From assembly GCA_016927595.1 (NCBI GenBank), contig JAFGMI010000014.1, forward strand, positions 1 through 45,492: a stretch of DNA of 45,492 bases, in the 5' to 3' direction. The notes under the pieces are model-generated. The model did no database searches and was not told the DNA's origin. It worked only from the letters and a program-made list of their open reading frames with translations. Source of the stretch: Melioribacteraceae bacterium (lineage in GTDB: Bacteria; Bacteroidota; Ignavibacteria; Ignavibacteriales; Melioribacteraceae). Positions within the stretch are counted from its first letter, which is position 1. Every line of letters begins with the position of its first letter. Positions 1-31,658 of the stretch are shown here, in pieces. Both the position numbers and the translations under genes were made by a program.

Positions 1-1
1 G

Positions 2-3000
2 GTAACTCCAACATTCAACGGAAATATCACCAATAACGGAACAATAAGAAACAATCCGGGTGGAAATGAGCTGTACATGTATACTCACAGCGATATACAC
101 AATAACGGCACATGGGAAAACAGATTCACATATCTGTCGTCTGCCAGCGCACAAAAGCTGAGTCAGTCATCCGGGAAAAAGTTCAGTTGTGAGATCGGCA
201 GATCAGCTGCCAATTATGGAGTCGGTACGGGAACTATTACGGCTGCCAGCGACCTGACATTCAGCAATAGTGTAAACCTGCAATCAGCCAATTATAGTTG
301 GGGAATATTTAATGCTGCAGGTTATAGCATAACCTGTGATGGGGCTATGAGGTTTATTCAAACCGTATTCAGGAACCTGAAGGACTTTGTAATGCTTAAC
401 GGAGCTTACCTGGAATCTGTTTCATTCGAAACTAACCTAACGTTGAAAGGAACCTGCAATCTAGGCAACTCGTCGATTCATTTCGGTGGAATTGTAACTG
501 TGGCAGATACGCTTCAAAACTCGGGATATCTGGGATGGGTAACAGGCAACTTCTACAATCAGATAATTAATAACGGCGTTATAAGAAATAATCCTGCAGG
601 CAATGAATTGTGGATAGACATTGATGGTAGTATAACCGGCAATGGTATATTTAACAACTCAAGAACATATTTATACACAAAGGGAATTGACAGAAAAATA
701 AGCGGTGAAAATTACAACACCAGTTTCTATCTTAAAAAAGACGGAGACCCGGCGTCAGGTACGATTAAATTTACAGAAAAATACGAAAACAAAGGTCGCA
801 CTCAAATTGAGAGCGGATCACATGCTGAGATTTCAAGCGGCTGTGATTTCTATAATAACTCAGACTTAAGAGTTTATGGAAGCCTTTCAAACAAGGGCAC
901 TGTATACGGCACGAGAAATTTCAGTACAAATTCCAATCAGAGTTTTTACAATTTATCGGTTTCTATTGCTTCGGGCGAGGGACTTGATTCGATGCTGGTT
1001 GTTTCTTATGGCGATCAGGTTCCAGCAACATTCGGTAACGGTGTAAAAGCTTGGTGGAGAATCAATACATTTCCGGATAATGTACATCCGCAATTCGGAA
1101 GCGCTACGTTTTATTATGAAGATGCGCTGCTTAATGATAATAATGAATCGGAGCTCAAACTGTTTCACTCGTCAGACAGCGGTAAAACATGGGTGCAGCT
1201 TTCAACAACTGCTAATTTAACAATCAACGCTAATAACAATACAGCATCAATTGCAGATGTTCCGGCTTACGGCGATTATATACTTTCTTCGGAACCCAAT
1301 CCTTATTCGGTTAAACCGATTGTTATTGTCTCGGTTATCGGCAGATCGCAGCTGAGGATAGGTCCCCCGAATCGTTACACTATCAATTATGCGAACAACA
1401 GTCTGGTGCCGGTGGATGATTTTTTAATCGGCTTAGTAGGCGGAACCAATACAAAAATATTGCAAGCCGAATTGACAAATGCTGACGGAACAAAACAGAT
1501 TCTGCCTGCAGACAGCCTCAACCTTGAATATGAAGACAGTGCCGCAACATTTTATATAGCAGGACTAGGTGCGGGCGAGGAGGGTTCTTTCGATATTATC
1601 TGCACAGGTATGCCTCTCGGGAAATCGTTGCATTCATCAACCACGCTGATAGAACCCTTCACACTGGTGGCAGGAGCAATAATAGTATATACCGGAACCA
1701 AGATAATTGATTATATGGGCGATAAAGCTGTCGAAAAAATAGAGCAGTGGGAAGTGCTGTCACCCGCGGAAAAAGAAGCCAAGCGTAAAATATGGGGTGA
1801 GCAGGTAAAAGAGGAGATTAATAAGGATAAACTTCGCGGAGTTAAACAGTGGGCAGGAAGAAAGGTAGGACAATATATTTTGACAAAGACAATGGGCGTG
1901 ATAGGCGGTACTATTGATATGATGGATGCGGCAAAAAGAAATGTTATTAAAGTTAATAAGAGTCTTAGAAAGAAAGTGTGGGACTGGTTATACAGGGAAT
2001 CGGGATTGTATGGTGTTGAAACGACCGAGTCGGGCGATTTCTCTCCCGATGTTACAGGATCATCGAAAAAAATGCAGGGAGTAACTTCATGGGATCCAAA
2101 CGAAAAGAACGGACCTGAGGGTTACGGCGCGCAGAAGTTTATTACGTCGGCAGGAAGGATGCACTATCAGATACTATTCGAAAACAAAAAGGAAGCTACT
2201 GATGCGGCTTATCAGATTGTAATACTTGATACATTAAGCAATGTGTTCGATCCTTCTACGGTAGAATTCGGTCCGACCAGTCATTCCGGATTTACCATGA
2301 CCCGTGAAGGAAACATCCTGAAATGGGAGGTAGTAGGCATCGAGCTTCCTCCCAACGTAAACCCGCCTGAAGGCGAAGGATATGTTACGCTCTCAGTTAA
2401 AACAGTTGAAGGACTTGAATCGGGGACAGCAATCTCCAATCAGGCTACTATTACGTTCGATCTGAATAAACCGATTACCACTAATTTGTACAACAACACA
2501 TTGGATTTTACGGCACCTGTAACCGAACTTGACGAGAATATTGTTGTTTTGGAAGGAGATACATTGTTGATTAACTGGTCTGCAGACGATACTGAAAGCG
2601 GTTCTGGAATTAATAGTACATCGCTGTTTTGTTCGATTGATGACGGTGCATATATGCCTGCAGGAATATCAAACCGGAATACGATCAGGTATCCTATGAT
2701 CTCCGGATCGCACAAATATAGTTTCTATGCATTGTCAACGGATAATGTCGGTAATTCCGAAAAGTCTTTTACCGCTGTTGTAAGTATTGATGCAGTCACT
2801 TCACAGAATGAAGATGAATTTATACCCGGTCAGTTTAAGCTTATGCAGAATTATCCGAATCCGTTCAATCCTTCCACAACAATTGAATACTGGCTGCCTG
2901 AAAACGGGAAGGTAAAACTGAGTCTGTTTAATATACTGGGCGAAAAAGTAGTTGATCTTGTCGATGAATTTCAGCGCGCAGGCGCGTATAGAAAAACACT

Positions 3001-3091
3001 TACTGTCGGCGGACTATCCAGCGGCATATATTTCTATAAGCTTGAATGCGGCTCTTTCAGTAATGTTAAAAAGTTAATGCTTGTAAAATAA
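2..3091 (+). CDS. T9SS-secreted repeat protein, 3' part (5' end outside window)
   Basis: The frame is open from base 2 with no stop, so the first in-frame ATG (base 77) is not the true start and the gene continues off the left edge. About 1,029 residues are visible. The N-terminal third is rich in Asn/Gly/Thr with repeated NNG..RNN motifs, looking like a beta-helix or adhesin-like repeat region. A helical, basic segment follows (about bases 1700-2020), then a DUF11/DUF7619-like beta domain opening with SWDPNEKNGPEG, then an Ig-like domain with DDTESGSGI. The last ~80 residues are a type A T9SS sorting domain (NYPNPFNPSTTIEY, ending FSNVKKLMLVK), so the protein should be exported through the outer membrane and anchored or released at the cell surface. 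The ligand or substrate is unknown. A good terminator lies just downstream. Confidence 0.9.
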   Translation, partial: VTPTFNGNITNNGTIRNNPGGNELYMYTHSDIHNNGTWENRFTYLSSASAQKLSQSSGKKFSCEIGRSAANYGVGTGTITAASDLTFSNSVNLQSANYSWGIFNAAGYSITCDGAMRFIQTVFRNLKDFVMLNGAYLESVSFETNLTLKGTCNLGNSSIHFGGIVTVADTLQNSGYLGWVTGNFYNQIINNGVIRNNPAGNELWIDIDGSITGNGIFNNSRTYLYTKGIDRKISGENYNTSFYLKKDGDPASGTIKFTEKYENKGRTQIESGSHAEISSGCDFYNNSDLRVYGSLSNKGTVYGTRNFSTNSNQSFYNLSVSIASGEGLDSMLVVSYGDQVPATFGNGVKAWWRINTFPDNVHPQFGSATFYYEDALLNDNNESELKLFHSSDSGKTWVQLSTTANLTINANNNTASIADVPAYGDYILSSEPNPYSVKPIVIVSVIGRSQLRIGPPNRYTINYANNSLVPVDDFLIGLVGGTNTKILQAELTNADGTKQILPADSLNLEYEDSAATFYIAGLGAGEEGSFDIICTGMPLGKSLHSSTTLIEPFTLVAGAIIVYTGTKIIDYMGDKAVEKIEQWEVLSPAEKEAKRKIWGEQVKEEINKDKLRGVKQWAGRKVGQYILTKTMGVIGGTIDMMDAAKRNVIKVNKSLRKKVWDWLYRESGLYGVETTESGDFSPDVTGSSKKMQGVTSWDPNEKNGPEGYGAQKFITSAGRMHYQILFENKKEATDAAYQIVILDTLSNVFDPSTVEFGPTSHSGFTMTREGNILKWEVVGIELPPNVNPPEGEGYVTLSVKTVEGLESGTAISNQATITFDLNKPITTNLYNNTLDFTAPVTELDENIVVLEGDTLLINWSADDTESGSGINSTSLFCSIDDGAYMPAGISNRNTIRYPMISGSHKYSFYALSTDNVGNSEKSFTAVVSIDAVTSQNEDEFIPGQFKLMQNYPNPFNPSTTIEYWLPENGKVKLSLFNILGEKVVDLVDEFQRAGAYRKTLTVGGLSSGIYFYKLECGSFSNVKKLMLVK

Positions 3092-3143: not shown

Positions 3144-3184
3144 AATTCTCCCGTTAACTTGTTTAACGGGGGAATTTTTTGTTT
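3144..3184 (+). terminator. Rho-independent terminator after T9SS gene
   Basis: A 14-bp stem (3144-3157 with 3163-3176, one G-T wobble) encloses a 5-nt loop and is followed by a T-rich run. It begins about 50 bases after the stop codon of the T9SS gene. Confidence 0.85.
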
Positions 3185-3251: not shown

Positions 3252-3899
3252 ATGGCTTTCAGCGAAACAGTATATCTACATTATTTATCAGCTCTGCTGG
3301 AAGGTGATAAAAACACCTGCCGTTCCATCATCAACAACCTGATGAATGAGAAGACCGATGTAAAAATCATTTATAAGGATGTTATTCAGAAATCGATGGT
3401 ACGAATAGGAGAGCTGTGGGATAAATGCAGGATTTGTATAACTACGGAACATGTAGCGACCGAAATCACAAAAGAAATGCTTTCTGTTATTAAACTGCAT
3501 GGTAATTATATTCAACCGGTTAATAAAACCGTACTGGTAACATGTGTACAAAAAGAATTTCATGAACTCGGAGCCCGCCTGATTTCAGATTTCTTCGAAA
3601 TGAAAGGCTGGAATTCCATATTTGCTGGTGCTAATACACCCCCGAAAGAACTTATGAAGTTCATCAGCGAAAAGAAACCGGATCTTGTTGGCATATCAAA
3701 TAATTTTTACCTGAACGTAATAAAATTATTCGAAACAATAGATATGATTAAATTAAAATATCCGGATCAGAGGATAATAATAGGAGGACACGGACCCGAA
3801 AACTGTTATGTAAATGTTATAGCAAAATACCCGGATATAACTTATATAAACACTCTGGAAGAACTGGAGAACTATATTACGGAATCGTTTAACATATAA
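3252..3899 (+). CDS. Cobalamin-binding protein with CarH-like photosensory motifs, no DNA-binding domain
   Basis: This 215-residue protein has a helical B12-binding-2 cap domain (residues ~5-85) followed by a Rossmann-type B12-binding domain (~92-205). Trp56 is followed by exactly nine residues and then Glu66-His67, the W-x9-EH signature known from the CarH/LitR light sensors. The lower axial ligand motif is ExHxxG (Glu102, His104, Gly107) instead of the usual DxHxxG. IIGGHG near residue 177 fits the glycine-rich nucleotide loop. CarH proteins carry an N-terminal MerR-type DNA-binding domain; here there is none, and the protein starts directly at the cap. The role is therefore inferred: a cytosolic adenosylcobalamin sensor acting through a partner, or a corrinoid carrier. 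No methyltransferase is adjacent. No clear ribosome binding site precedes the ATG. Confidence 0.85.
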   Translation: MAFSETVYLHYLSALLEGDKNTCRSIINNLMNEKTDVKIIYKDVIQKSMVRIGELWDKCRICITTEHVATEITKEMLSVIKLHGNYIQPVNKTVLVTCVQKEFHELGARLISDFFEMKGWNSIFAGANTPPKELMKFISEKKPDLVGISNNFYLNVIKLFETIDMIKLKYPDQRIIIGGHGPENCYVNVIAKYPDITYINTLEELENYITESFNI

Positions 3900-26613: not shown

Positions 26614-29013
26614 ATGAGCACGAAATTAATTCGTCTGCTGCACTTATTACTAGTAAACCTGCTCTTAATCGGTTGCTCGGGCTATTCCGAAAATGAAATT
26701 GGTGATATAATAGCACCCATTACATTAACCTCGGGCAAGTCGAAACAAATTGTCGTACAGGATATATTCTACACTGAAAAGCATGAAATCTTTTTTAAAA
26801 ATAATGATCAACTTTCTATAAACTATAATTCCGGCAATGATACAATAACCATTATTCCAAATCCCGGTTTTGATGGTATTACTTCTCTTAATTTCGAGTT
26901 TGATGACAACATGTACGATATACCACTTATTGTAAAAAAAGAAAAGCTTTACGAGTTCTCCTTTAAACCGGATAAAGATTATGAGGAACTCACACTTTTC
27001 GGAAGCTTCAACGGCTGGAACAGGCACGACATATTCATGAATGATGAAGACGGAAACGGTGTCTTTACTGCATCGGCAGCTCTTGAACCGGGAGTTTACC
27101 AGTATAAGTTTTTCGGTGACGGCGAGGAGATTGTCGATCCACTCAATCCTCAGAAAGTTCCGAATGGTTTCGGAAGTTTTAACTCTGTTCGTATTATCGA
27201 AGAAAACGATGTCGATAAACTTTTTCTTCATATTGATACATATGACCTCAATTCAATTCGCGGCAGCTATAGTTTTATTGCAGAATATAAAAACAGATCA
27301 GCATTACTGCCCGAAGAGGTCTTTGCATATCTGGACAATAATCAAATCGATGATAAGTATCTCGAGGTTAAAGGCAGCCGGATAATAATTCATATTCCAA
27401 GGGAAGAACTTGGCGATAATGATTTGCTGAGAGTTATAATCTCAAAAAACGGTCGTATAAGCAATATGCAGTATGTATTTCTGTTTGACGGAGAACCTGC
27501 ATCAAACGAAAACTTTACCTGGTACGACGGGATAATTTATTCGTTAATGATAGATAGATTTAATGACGGCGACAAATCGCTCAACAAACCAGTTCAACAT
27601 GATTCTCTTCTGAAAAAAGCTAATTATATGGGTGGCGACCTGCAGGGTGTGATCGATAAATTGAATGAAGGATATTTCACAGATCTTGGAATAAACACAC
27701 TGTGGATATCACCGGTTTATGATAATCCAGAAGAAGCGTTTCGTGAATATCCCGCACCGCACAGATATTATTCCGGGTATCACGGCTACTGGCCAATAAG
27801 TCCCGATAAAGTTGAAAACAGGTTTGGCGACCTGGCTAAACTGAAGGAACTTGTAAAAACAGCACATAACAAAAACATAAAAGTACTTCTGGATTTTGTT
27901 TCGAACCATACTCACGAACAACATCCTTACTTCAAAGAAAACCGCAACTGGTACGGTCAACTCGAATTGCCGAACGGTGAACTTAACCTGCGGAAATGGG
28001 ATGAATACAGGCTGACAACATGGTTTGAACCCTACCTGCCTTCGTTCGATTATCTCGGGTCACCCGAAGCGGTTGAAGCAATAACCAACAACGCAGTCTG
28101 GTGGTTAAAGCAAACAGATGCTGACGGTTACAGGCACGACGCAGTCAAACATGTTCCGAACCTTTTCTGGCGGGAACTAAACAAGAAAATCAGGGAGCAG
28201 GTTGCTGCCCATAGAGATTTTCCGGTTTTTCAAATCGGTGAAACATTTGGCAGTTATGAATTGATTAGTTCCTATGTAAATAACGGTCAGCTCAGCAGCC
28301 AGTTTAATTTTAATCTGTACGATGTCGCAATTCCAACATTTATTGAAAAGAATTCATCGTTCGACAGGCTGGATAAGGAAATGAATAAAACGTTTTCAAT
28401 TTACGGCAACATACATCTGATGGGAAACGTAATGGACAGCCATGATAAAAACAGGTTTATGGCTTATGCTGACGGTGACCTTGATGTATCCGAATGGAGC
28501 GCAGTTGAGACCGGTTGGAACAATCCGCCTGTTGTTGATAATCCTGACAATTATAAGAAATTGAATTTATACTATGCTTATATGAATACAATTCCGGGTC
28601 TTCCAGTAATTTACTACGGAAGCGAATTCGGTATGAGCGGTGCAAGCGATCCTGACAACAGGAGAATGATGCGATTCGGTAATCAACTAAGTGAAGCAGA
28701 GAAGAGAACCCTTTCAGAAAACAGGAAAATTATAAATCTTCGCGAGCAGCACACGGCTTTGCGCTACGGGGATTTTTACACTTTACAGGCAGATGAAAAC
28801 ATCTACGCGTACATGAGATCTGATATGTACGAGAGATTATTGATAGTATTAAACAAATCAGCCACTGAGCAGAATATTGATATCAGGATTCCAATTTATT
28901 ACGAAGTAAAGGAACTGAAAAGTTTATATGATACAAGCATTGTGGTGGTAACAAAAAACAGTTGTAAAGTTGTTGTAAATGGGAACGGCTGGCAGATTTA
29001 CAGTCTGAATTAA
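26614..29013 (+). CDS. GH13 alpha-amylase-family lipoprotein
   Basis: A 799-residue glycoside hydrolase with a lipoprotein signal (LLLIGC, Cys21), an N-terminal beta region, a CBM48/AMPK-type glycogen-binding domain (~110-190; LFGSFNGWNRHD, GVYQYKFFGDG), a linker Ig-like domain and a GH13 catalytic barrel. Conserved regions I-IV are visible: DFVSNH, GYRHDAVKH with nucleophile Asp509, FQIGETFG with acid/base Glu543, and DSHDKNR with Asp611. It should cleave alpha-1,4-glucans such as starch, pullulan or cyclodextrins on the cell surface or in the periplasm. Region IV has SHD instead of NHD. No SusC/SusD genes flank it. Its stop codon overlaps that of the convergent recQ gene. Confidence 0.95.
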   Translation: MSTKLIRLLHLLLVNLLLIGCSGYSENEIGDIIAPITLTSGKSKQIVVQDIFYTEKHEIFFKNNDQLSINYNSGNDTITIIPNPGFDGITSLNFEFDDNMYDIPLIVKKEKLYEFSFKPDKDYEELTLFGSFNGWNRHDIFMNDEDGNGVFTASAALEPGVYQYKFFGDGEEIVDPLNPQKVPNGFGSFNSVRIIEENDVDKLFLHIDTYDLNSIRGSYSFIAEYKNRSALLPEEVFAYLDNNQIDDKYLEVKGSRIIIHIPREELGDNDLLRVIISKNGRISNMQYVFLFDGEPASNENFTWYDGIIYSLMIDRFNDGDKSLNKPVQHDSLLKKANYMGGDLQGVIDKLNEGYFTDLGINTLWISPVYDNPEEAFREYPAPHRYYSGYHGYWPISPDKVENRFGDLAKLKELVKTAHNKNIKVLLDFVSNHTHEQHPYFKENRNWYGQLELPNGELNLRKWDEYRLTTWFEPYLPSFDYLGSPEAVEAITNNAVWWLKQTDADGYRHDAVKHVPNLFWRELNKKIREQVAAHRDFPVFQIGETFGSYELISSYVNNGQLSSQFNFNLYDVAIPTFIEKNSSFDRLDKEMNKTFSIYGNIHLMGNVMDSHDKNRFMAYADGDLDVSEWSAVETGWNNPPVVDNPDNYKKLNLYYAYMNTIPGLPVIYYGSEFGMSGASDPDNRRMMRFGNQLSEAEKRTLSENRKIINLREQHTALRYGDFYTLQADENIYAYMRSDMYERLLIVLNKSATEQNIDIRIPIYYEVKELKSLYDTSIVVVTKNSCKVVVNGNGWQIYSLN

Positions 29014-30467: not shown

Positions 30468-31658
30468 TTATTTAATCAGAAATATTTCTGTTTGCGGGGT
30501 GCTTAAGAATTCAACACCTTCGTCTTTAACCCATACAATTTCTTCCATCGTAGCGATGCCGTAGCCGGGTATTGTTAATCTTGGTTCTATTGTAAACACG
30601 TTCCCCTTTTCCAAAGGCATGTAAACAATATTACCATAACGTTCCCATTTAGGACCCATCATAGCGCCGCCGTCGTGAGCAACTCTGCCAACCTGGTGTC
30701 CGAGTCCATGGGGATATTCTTCGTATCCGTTGCTAACAATATTACTCCGGGCGATGTCGTCTATTTCCCATGCAATTTTACCAGGCTTCATTGCCGCAGC
30801 AGCCATTTGAATAGACTCTTTAATAACATTAAATCCTTTCATTACTTCTTCTGGTGCTTCGGTTTCACCTTTCTTTAATACATACCAGGTACGTTGTAAA
30901 TCCGAGCAATATCCATTATACTTAATACCGAAGTCCATGTTTATAACATGTCCGGGCTTAATCTTCCTATCGGTAGGACCGGCGTGAGCACCTGCCGTAT
31001 CGGGTCCCGTAAACACCGCAGGGCAATGTTCTTCATCCCAGGCGAGTTCGAAACCTCTTTCTTTAACGAGTTTGATTACAAACTCCGCAACATCTTTCTC
31101 CGATTTTCCAACTTCAATAAAACTGGTTACTTCATCAAATATTTTAAGTGTTTCTTCTATAGCTTTTTTAATAAGATCAACCTCAGATTGATTTTTTCTG
31201 CCGCGTAAAGCAGCAATAATTTCTTCCGAAGATATGAATCTGTCTTTATACGGTGTATCTTTAAGCCAGTCCATCAGTTCGAGGTAACAGCCGAAAGTTA
31301 ACCCGTCCGCCATGCTTGAATTACGCGAAAAGTTAATGGCAATCTTTTGAGGATCGTATTTTTCAAGCACTTTCAGAAGGTCATCTTTTCCGAACTTAAG
31401 ATAACTGACAATATTATTGAAGGTTCCGACCGTTTTCATATTTGCCTCTTCCAGCGAACCAATGACGGCTGTCGTGTCACCGTTCTTCGTGATTATAAAT
31501 GCCGAAAACCATGTAGCGCCTGTACCGACAATCATTTCGAGCATAGGATCTTTGATATTGCCCGTCTCCCTAACGAACGTCATCCACATATCAATATCTT
31601 TTTCGTTAAGAATTTCAACAGCTTGTTTTTGTTTTTCAAGAATCATTGTTTTGTCCAT
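30468..31658 (-). CDS. M24-family metallopeptidase (Xaa-Pro aminopeptidase/prolidase type)
   Basis: A 396-residue cytosolic peptidase with a creatinase-type N-terminal domain (~1-145) and a pita-bread catalytic domain (~155-396). The metal ligands are recognisable: Asp242 and Asp253 (NMDFGIKYNGYCSD), His321 (GLGHQVG), Glu358 (TIEPR) and Glu372 (TMEEIVWV). It probably releases N-terminal residues from Xaa-Pro peptides. There is no signal peptide. A GAGGG ribosome binding site precedes the ATG. It follows a small gene on the same strand by 35 bases and precedes recQ by nine, suggesting a three-gene transcript. Confidence 0.93.
   Translation of the reverse strand: MDKTMILEKQKQAVEILNEKDIDMWMTFVRETGNIKDPMLEMIVGTGATWFSAFIITKNGDTTAVIGSLEEANMKTVGTFNNIVSYLKFGKDDLLKVLEKYDPQKIAINFSRNSSMADGLTFGCYLELMDWLKDTPYKDRFISSEEIIAALRGRKNQSEVDLIKKAIEETLKIFDEVTSFIEVGKSEKDVAEFVIKLVKERGFELAWDEEHCPAVFTGPDTAGAHAGPTDRKIKPGHVINMDFGIKYNGYCSDLQRTWYVLKKGETEAPEEVMKGFNVIKESIQMAAAAMKPGKIAWEIDDIARSNIVSNGYEEYPHGLGHQVGRVAHDGGAMMGPKWERYGNIVYMPLEKGNVFTIEPRLTIPGYGIATMEEIVWVKDEGVEFLSTPQTEIFLIK

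Follow-up and report, generated by a model that had tools for sequence, protein, structure and literature searches.

Photocobilins, represented by SasPcob and AbDPcob (PDB 8J2W, 8J2X and 8J2Y), combine a cobalamin-binding module with a fused biliverdin-binding globin, and those that exhibit the Wx9EH motif undergo CarH-like spectral changes under green light (PMC10979010, excerpts). SasPcob has no fused output domain, and the light-adapted stand-alone protein activates a diguanylate cyclase in trans in vitro (PMC10979010, excerpts). The CarH/LitR regulator of Thermus thermophilus (TtCarH, PDB 5C8D) possesses a MerR domain; the residues of the GxxW-x9-EH motif of CarH contact the adenosyl group, its lower-ligand motif has been published as D/ExHx2G (PMC9304148, excerpts), and the break-up of the TtCarH tetramer needs His132 (PMC10442372, excerpts). 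CtMerR of Chloracidobacterium (PDB 8JBS, 8JBT), a dark tetramer with a DNA-binding domain, exhibits the same pocket without a His at position 132 and is light-responsive (PMC11796333, excerpts). AerR and SAerR (PDB 7TE2) are stand-alone cobalamin proteins that work with a partner, in the case of AerR the transcription factor CrtJ, which it controls by protein contact (PMC9144470, excerpts). BBAG-2 clusters encode a B12 protein and a globin as separate adjoining genes (PMC10151467, excerpts), together with genes for bilin synthesis. Stand-alone cobalamin photosensors are already known, with the in vitro action of SasPcob as an example of signal transfer to a separate protein.

The protein analyzed here is encoded in a stretch of 45,492 nucleotides from a Melioribacteraceae bacterium (contig JAFGMI010000014.1, referred to below as the window). 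A preliminary inspection of the letters without database searches (the sequence-only reading) had delimited its open reading frame correctly, from start to stop codon (Table 1). The Pfam analysis identified PF02607 (B12-binding_2) in aa 11–81 (E-value 3.9e-13) and PF02310 (B12-binding) in aa 93–195 (E-value 4.4e-16), which together nearly fill the protein; no MerR or other output domain was found above the cut-off, in agreement with the sequence-only reading, and Pfam revealed no fused bilin-binding globin (photoglobin) domain, the membership feature of photocobilins. Without a MerR domain the protein is not a CarH, and without a globin it is not a photocobilin by definition; CarH is nonetheless its top NCBIfam match, at 49.8 bits against a cut-off of 400. 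We propose, with a probability of about 0.62, that it senses light with adenosylcobalamin as a stand-alone protein and acts through a separate partner, and that it most likely works like a photocobilin minus the bilin part. The same genome encodes a cobalamin adenosyltransferase (PF01923, E-value 6.3e-60). Two terminator-like sites were found between positions 3050 and 4100 (shuffled sequence: mean 0.7, sd 0.8), and since one of them separates the gene from its upstream neighbor, the sensor gene is probably transcribed alone from its own promoter. The scan of the whole window returned no tRNA and no Rfam family at the gathering score. No paper describing this family was found in the literature searched, which covered few subscription papers.

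Table 1. Coordinates of the features discussed in the text (positions refer to the window unless a locus is named)
Feature	Position	Strand	Remarks
Gene for stand-alone cobalamin-binding protein, subgroup Ia	3252..3899	+	starts with ATG at 3252 and ends with the stop codon 3897-3899; intact, 215 aa
Terminator-like hairpin	3144..3176	+	14 pairs, then T run; between upstream gene and sensor gene; consensus match only
GxxW-x9-EH, G53 to H67	3408..3452	+	G53, W56, E66 and H67 conserved without exception in class I (39/39)
Lower axial ligand loop, K101-E102-F103-H104-E105-L106-G107	3552..3572	+	H104 corresponds to TtCarH H177; H104 and G107 in 39/39
GxxxP, G126 to P130	3627..3641	+	Ia: G 35/35, P 33/35
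S149 to GG178-179, latter half of classic B12-binding motif	3696..3788	+	Ia: S149 33/35, G178 and G179 35/35
Residue 180	3789-3791		GGH in the window protein
Large secreted-type gene	1-3091		window begins inside it
Three consecutive genes of ~790-815 aa	11247-18546		FtsX/MacB-type permease-like, by sequence reading only
GH13 amylase-like gene	26614..29013	+	PF00128; 57% identity to L044 copy; 22.7 kb from sensor gene
Peptidase-like gene	30468..31658	-	aminopeptidase/Xaa-Pro type, below NCBIfam cut-offs; cluster often after amylase in relatives, by sequence likeness
Gene similar to the large gene, at the end of the contig with the PAP2-like gene, window's genome	L081:9131-9588		contig C31 ends inside it
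MerR-cobalamin CarH-like gene, window's genome (G000)	L082:7924-9643		contig C4; Wx9EH and QKHEIG; divergent from sigma-70 family gene
Carotenoid cluster, window's genome	L162:1847-9917		contig C22; phytoene synthase by SQS_PSY match, others by sequence reading and likeness to L051
Sensor and carotenoid genes, G032	L051:1-8623		same strand
Ib three-gene modules	L068:5788-8589; L069:4289-6542; L122:5309-7579; L123:7357-9611		cobalamin protein, ~150-aa protein, histidine kinase
Cobalamin-only class II sensor, then SpoIIE-type phosphatase	L010:5944-7898		SAR324 MAG
Ia sensor gene directly upstream of MlaE/ABC ATPase/MlaD operon	L054, L060, L063, L064, L067		Pfam on L060 only

Searches of 58 genomes (that of the window and its relatives) revealed proteins of about 215 aa in 27, with 35–66% identity when the window protein itself is excluded. 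A family profile run against 395 genomes from the phylum, with up to 7 candidates scored in each, returned 30 places with at least 223 bits, followed by a gap down to at most 174 bits; the members of the lower-scoring group are mostly about 355 aa long, with one exception of 216 aa (L124 from G134, 150 bits). No relative was found in the viral contigs searched. The set analyzed here as class I comprises 39 members, i.e. 35 of subgroup Ia, including the window protein, and 4 of the deeper-branching subgroup Ib; among the members measured, the lowest identity to the window protein is 35% for Ia and 28% for Ib. L124 and L146 (G070) were left out of all counts, as were three Paenibacillus sequences (L008, L009 and L012) that are close copies of L007, and L113 and L078 stand outside the counts of next genes. 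The residue counts below refer to an alignment of 83 rows, against which the TtCarH numbering was checked, and which also includes MerR-CarH proteins (16), photocobilin-type proteins (class II, 17) and corrinoid carriers with MetH (11, three of them from the window's genome).

The sequence-only reading had singled out W56 and E66-H67, with nine residues between them, and this spacing holds throughout class I: G53, W56, E66 and H67 align with G128, W131, E141 and H142 of TtCarH, as do the class I counterparts of E175, H177, G180, G199 and P203. Wx9EH is present in all class I members (Ia 35, Ib 4), in 17/17 class II and in 16/16 MerR-CarH rows; neither it nor the EH pair occurs in any of the 11 carrier and MetH rows, 10 of which exhibit Phe at the Trp site. 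Since all 39 proteins retain W, E and H at identities as low as 28% among those measured, and since EH is absent from all 11 carriers, the motif is no product of chance; such a pocket very probably holds the B12 coenzyme as green-light sensors do. The CarH-type pattern D/ExHxxG...S...GG is complete in the window protein (E102-x-H104-xx-G107, S149, G178-G179), with S...GG taken as part of the classic B12-binding motif as defined in PMC9304148 (excerpts). At residue 180, the GGH of the window protein corresponds to GGQ in 34/35 Ia and 4/4 Ib rows. The Glu at position 102 had been taken by the sequence-only reading for a departure from CarH; this contrast has to be reversed, since CarH of T. thermophilus HB8 (plasmid record) itself reads E175-R-H177-E-I-G180, the published motif admits either residue, and Asp, found in 11/11 carriers, is the carrier form here. 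Class I has 37 Glu and 2 Asp at this position; the 16 CarH rows are divided between Glu (7) and Gln (7), with one Asp and one Phe.

The signature of light-responsive cobalamin-binding domains (SignatureFinder) comprises GxxW, EH, GxxH and GxxxP (PMC11796333, excerpts), of which the window protein exhibits all parts except GxxH. Its K101 occupies the position of TtCarH Gly174, a site with Lys throughout Ia (35/35) and Asn throughout Ib (4/4), so that GxxH is missing from class I as a whole; the Gly is also absent from 5/17 class II and 5/16 CarH rows. At the position of TtCarH Arg176 class I exhibits Phe or Tyr, with one Gln, and at that of His132 it has Asp (Asp57 in the window protein) or Glu in 39/39 members. 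Judging from the alignment, class I is thus set apart by Lys or Asn at the position of Gly174 and a carboxylate at that of His132.

His132 is the upper ligand in the light state of CarH, and its replacement in all 39 members would agree with another reading, in which the protein is a light-independent adenosylcobalamin sensor or effector whose pocket reports the intracellular level of the coenzyme to a partner, photolysis being incidental. The pocket residues argue for binding of the adenosyl group, not for light itself, and photolyase-type matches (FAD_binding_7) over the cut-off are found in 8 of the 58 genomes and are absent from that of the window. On the other hand, the same W/EH pocket with Arg (CtMerR), Gln (SasPcob) or Tyr (AbDPcob) in place of His132 still responds to green light (PMC11796333, excerpts), and the kinase-linked class II relatives mostly possess an N-terminal domain that matches phycobiliproteins. 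We regard a light-independent role as unlikely.

The genomic neighborhood of the nearest relatives suggests where a light signal could go. In 4/4 Ib loci a gene for a protein of about 150 aa and a histidine kinase gene come right after the cobalamin gene, the gaps ranging from -32 to 18 bases; in L123 the kinase gene precedes the ~150-aa gene, and in L122 the HisKA domain of the kinase scores under the Pfam cut-off, with HATPase above it. The ~150-aa protein has no Pfam and no PDB match, and its hhalign match to the class II N-terminal domain is weak (probability 31%/21%, E-value 0.0005/0.001 for a single pair), so that 'globin-like' is a tentative label. The Ib module is possibly a split photocobilin two-component system, in which the B12 protein and the globin would be encoded separately, perhaps as in BBAG-2 clusters; those clusters, however, carry bilin-synthesis genes where Ib carries a histidine kinase, and Ia has neither as an immediate neighbor.

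Among class II, the next gene was examined in 16 of the 17 rows and encodes a HisKA/HATPase kinase in 13; the other next genes encode a SpoIIE-type phosphatase (L010), a GGDEF protein (Ilyobacter) and, in the Streptomyces row, a STAS protein, with a PP2C phosphatase upstream. Pfam was run on the neighbors in L070, L079, L007 and L010; the other kinases were recognized by the alignment and their H-box. Two class II proteins, L010 and L079, consist of the cobalamin module alone, and L079 adjoins a kinase. In L070–L077, L125, L126 and L011, a relative from an Ignavibacteriaceae MAG, the photocobilin-type protein, with a phycobiliprotein-like N-terminal domain and a cobalamin domain, is directly followed by a histidine kinase, and these kinases have an N-terminal region in common. 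With kinase or other output genes adjoining both the Ib and the class II genes, these kin very likely signal to separately encoded output proteins, and the partner of the closest relatives is very likely the adjoining histidine kinase. Among these homologs without MerR, the kinase is the recurrent neighbor in Ib and class II, and the neighbors in Ia are lineage-specific.

At the 35 Ia loci the immediate neighbors never include a member of the kinase cluster or of the 150-aa (globin-like) cluster, a count in which some loci end at contig ends and the unclustered genes are only partly identified. For each of the two kinase types, a profile of the N-terminal region (E-value up to 0.001) recovered the genomes it came from (1 of 6 and 2 of 7 searched) and gave no match in the window's genome or in its two congeners; the profile of the Ib 150-aa protein, in a search without a control, had no match in the window's genome at E-values up to 1. 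From these comparisons the kinase linkage seems to have been lost in Ia. In 22/35 Ia loci the gene directly upstream is PAP2_C-like, and in 19/35 the one directly downstream is GH13 amylase-like, each with one further case with an intervening gene; MlaE, ABC ATPase and MlaD genes follow downstream in 5/35 loci, all from one family of the order, and a pyrophosphatase-like gene (by sequence reading) is found upstream in 4/35 loci of another family, once with a small ORF between. The Pfam assignments of these neighbors (PAP2_C, amylase, MlaE, ABC, MlaD) come from single members.

In the window's genome the Ia cluster is broken up and the sensor gene is retained: the amylase-like and peptidase-like genes, with a recQ-like gene between them, lie far downstream in the window, and the PAP2-like gene is on a separate contig (C31). 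This scattering, together with the different neighbors in other families, weakens the candidate notion that the PAP2-like and amylase genes form a general output operon. The contig with the PAP2-like gene ends inside a gene similar to the first gene of the window, and in the congener L043 the PAP2-like gene, the large gene and the sensor gene are consecutive. The two contigs are possibly adjacent, with no overlap found between the end of one and the start of the other.

An AerR-like antirepressor, i.e. a free-standing cobalamin protein whose contact with one particular transcription factor alters the DNA binding of that factor, would match the predicted fold (7te2, Z-score 18.6) and the lack of an output domain, and a CarH-like MerR regulator is encoded in the same genome (Table 1). 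However, no transcription factor was found among the identified recurring immediate neighbors of the 35 Ia genes, with a DtxR-like gene (by sequence reading) downstream in the single locus L066, and AerR is absent from the PDB sequence matches of the family profile at E-value 0.001, so that the relation to AerR seen here is one of fold. We consider this role quite improbable.

Structure prediction for the window protein with a six-row alignment (window protein and five relatives) gave an AlphaFold2 model with a mean pLDDT of 82.9; a poor single-sequence model (pLDDT 46.5) was discarded. Comparison with CarH revealed the same fold (Z-score 16.9), and, best match per entry, the top three were SasPcob (23.2), CtMerR (22.0) and AbPcob (21.7), followed by MetH (19.9), the monomethylamine corrinoid protein (18.8) and AerR, a ranking biased toward photocobilins by the photocobilin-type rows in the model alignment. 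The search of the family profile against the PDB returned SasPcob (E-value 1.2e-28), AbPcob (1.5e-20) and CtMerR (1.5e-19), and further the corrinoid protein 4jgi (1.3e-18), MetH (1.4e-15) and CarH (5.1e-07), the last being outranked also by 1y80. Photocobilins are thus the best sequence, profile and structural matches of the window protein and share its W/EH pocket, and on these comparisons the nearest characterized relatives are photocobilins, not CarH itself. Since MetH and the corrinoid proteins outrank CarH as well, fold and profile alone do not set the window protein apart from carriers, and the distinction comes from the pocket residues and the tree.

In the tree of the 83 rows, subgroup Ia is supported at 97/96 and Ia with Ib at 100/98, and both are joined with 16 of the 17 class II rows at 99/96, SasPcob itself not being a row; carriers (99/94) and MerR-CarH (96/87) form groups of their own. 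Ib is not a clade, L123 branching first, and neither is class II: its Streptomyces row is placed close to the carriers at low support (93/60), and its Ilyobacter row adjoins class I (95/59). Joining class I to CarH was not rejected (p-AU 0.107), but the best tree prefers the photocobilin-type rows, beside which class I is placed. TtCarH has a long branch and an odd composition. A corrinoid methyl-group carrier of the MtaC/MtbC/MtgC type or its remnant, retained by the sequence-only reading as an ancestral alternative, would explain the two identical Pfam domains, the similar fold, the ranks above CarH and weak MtgC and MtbC matches in NCBIfam, far under the cut-off, but it is highly improbable in view of the missing EH pair and the Asp two residues before His in the carriers, of a joint clade rejected at p-AU 0.016, and of the lack of a methyltransferase among the recurring Ia neighbors identified (many single neighbors being unassigned), and on pocket residues and tree we set it aside. 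What survives of the sequence-only reading is a CarH-like module without its own output that would depend on a partner, in keeping with the invariant pocket, the fold matching photocobilins and CarH, and the clade relatives located directly before histidine kinases; its argument from Glu versus Asp and its carrier alternative do not stand, and photocobilins are nearer than CarH.

The genomes that encode Ia proteins were also compared for genes related to light. At least one SQS_PSY gene is found in all 58 genomes; a further, lower-scoring copy, taken as phytoene synthase, is present in 17/27 genomes with Ia versus 5/31 without (Fisher one-sided p 0.00028) and, among genomes at least 90% complete, in 15/24 versus 5/26 (p 0.0021), both values ignoring shared ancestry. 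Strong photolyase-type matches occur in 4/27 genomes with Ia versus 0/31 without (p 0.041). In G032 a carotenoid cluster (crtI-like, crtB, an unidentified gene, lycopene cyclase and another crtI-like gene, truncated where the contig ends) begins 386 bp past the PAP2-like, sensor and amylase genes; among the neighbors identified at the 35 Ia loci, no other carotenoid genes were seen. The window's genome has a carotenoid cluster as well, on another contig; the 16 kb examined there contain no sensor gene.

If the window protein is indeed a light sensor of the proposed kind, it would bind adenosylcobalamin in the dark between its four-helix cap and Rossmann domain, base-off and with H104 as the lower ligand, the adenosyl group packing on W56 and contacting E66 and H67. 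Cleavage of the Co-C bond by green light would set the adenosyl group free, upon which the pocket would relax; since the protein has no output domain, the altered surface of the light-state protein would have to act on another protein. Sequence, pocket conservation, predicted fold, ancestry and the kinase linkage of relatives are what was observed, and cobalamin binding, the light response, the action on a partner and the loss of the kinase are what we infer. As a more speculative and rather doubtful extension, the lineage may have shed the kinase and the globin and act via a new partner, with Asp/Glu57 in place of His132 and the invariant Lys101 giving a different light-state cobalt chemistry, and it may control envelope-lipid or carotenoid functions (PAP2-like, MlaEFD, crt) without binding DNA itself.

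The Ib triplets and the class II-kinase pairs provide concrete candidates for sensor and partner. Subgroup Ia is a defined family of minimal size, one residue short of the published four-part signature, and its proteins might serve as a compact green-light module.
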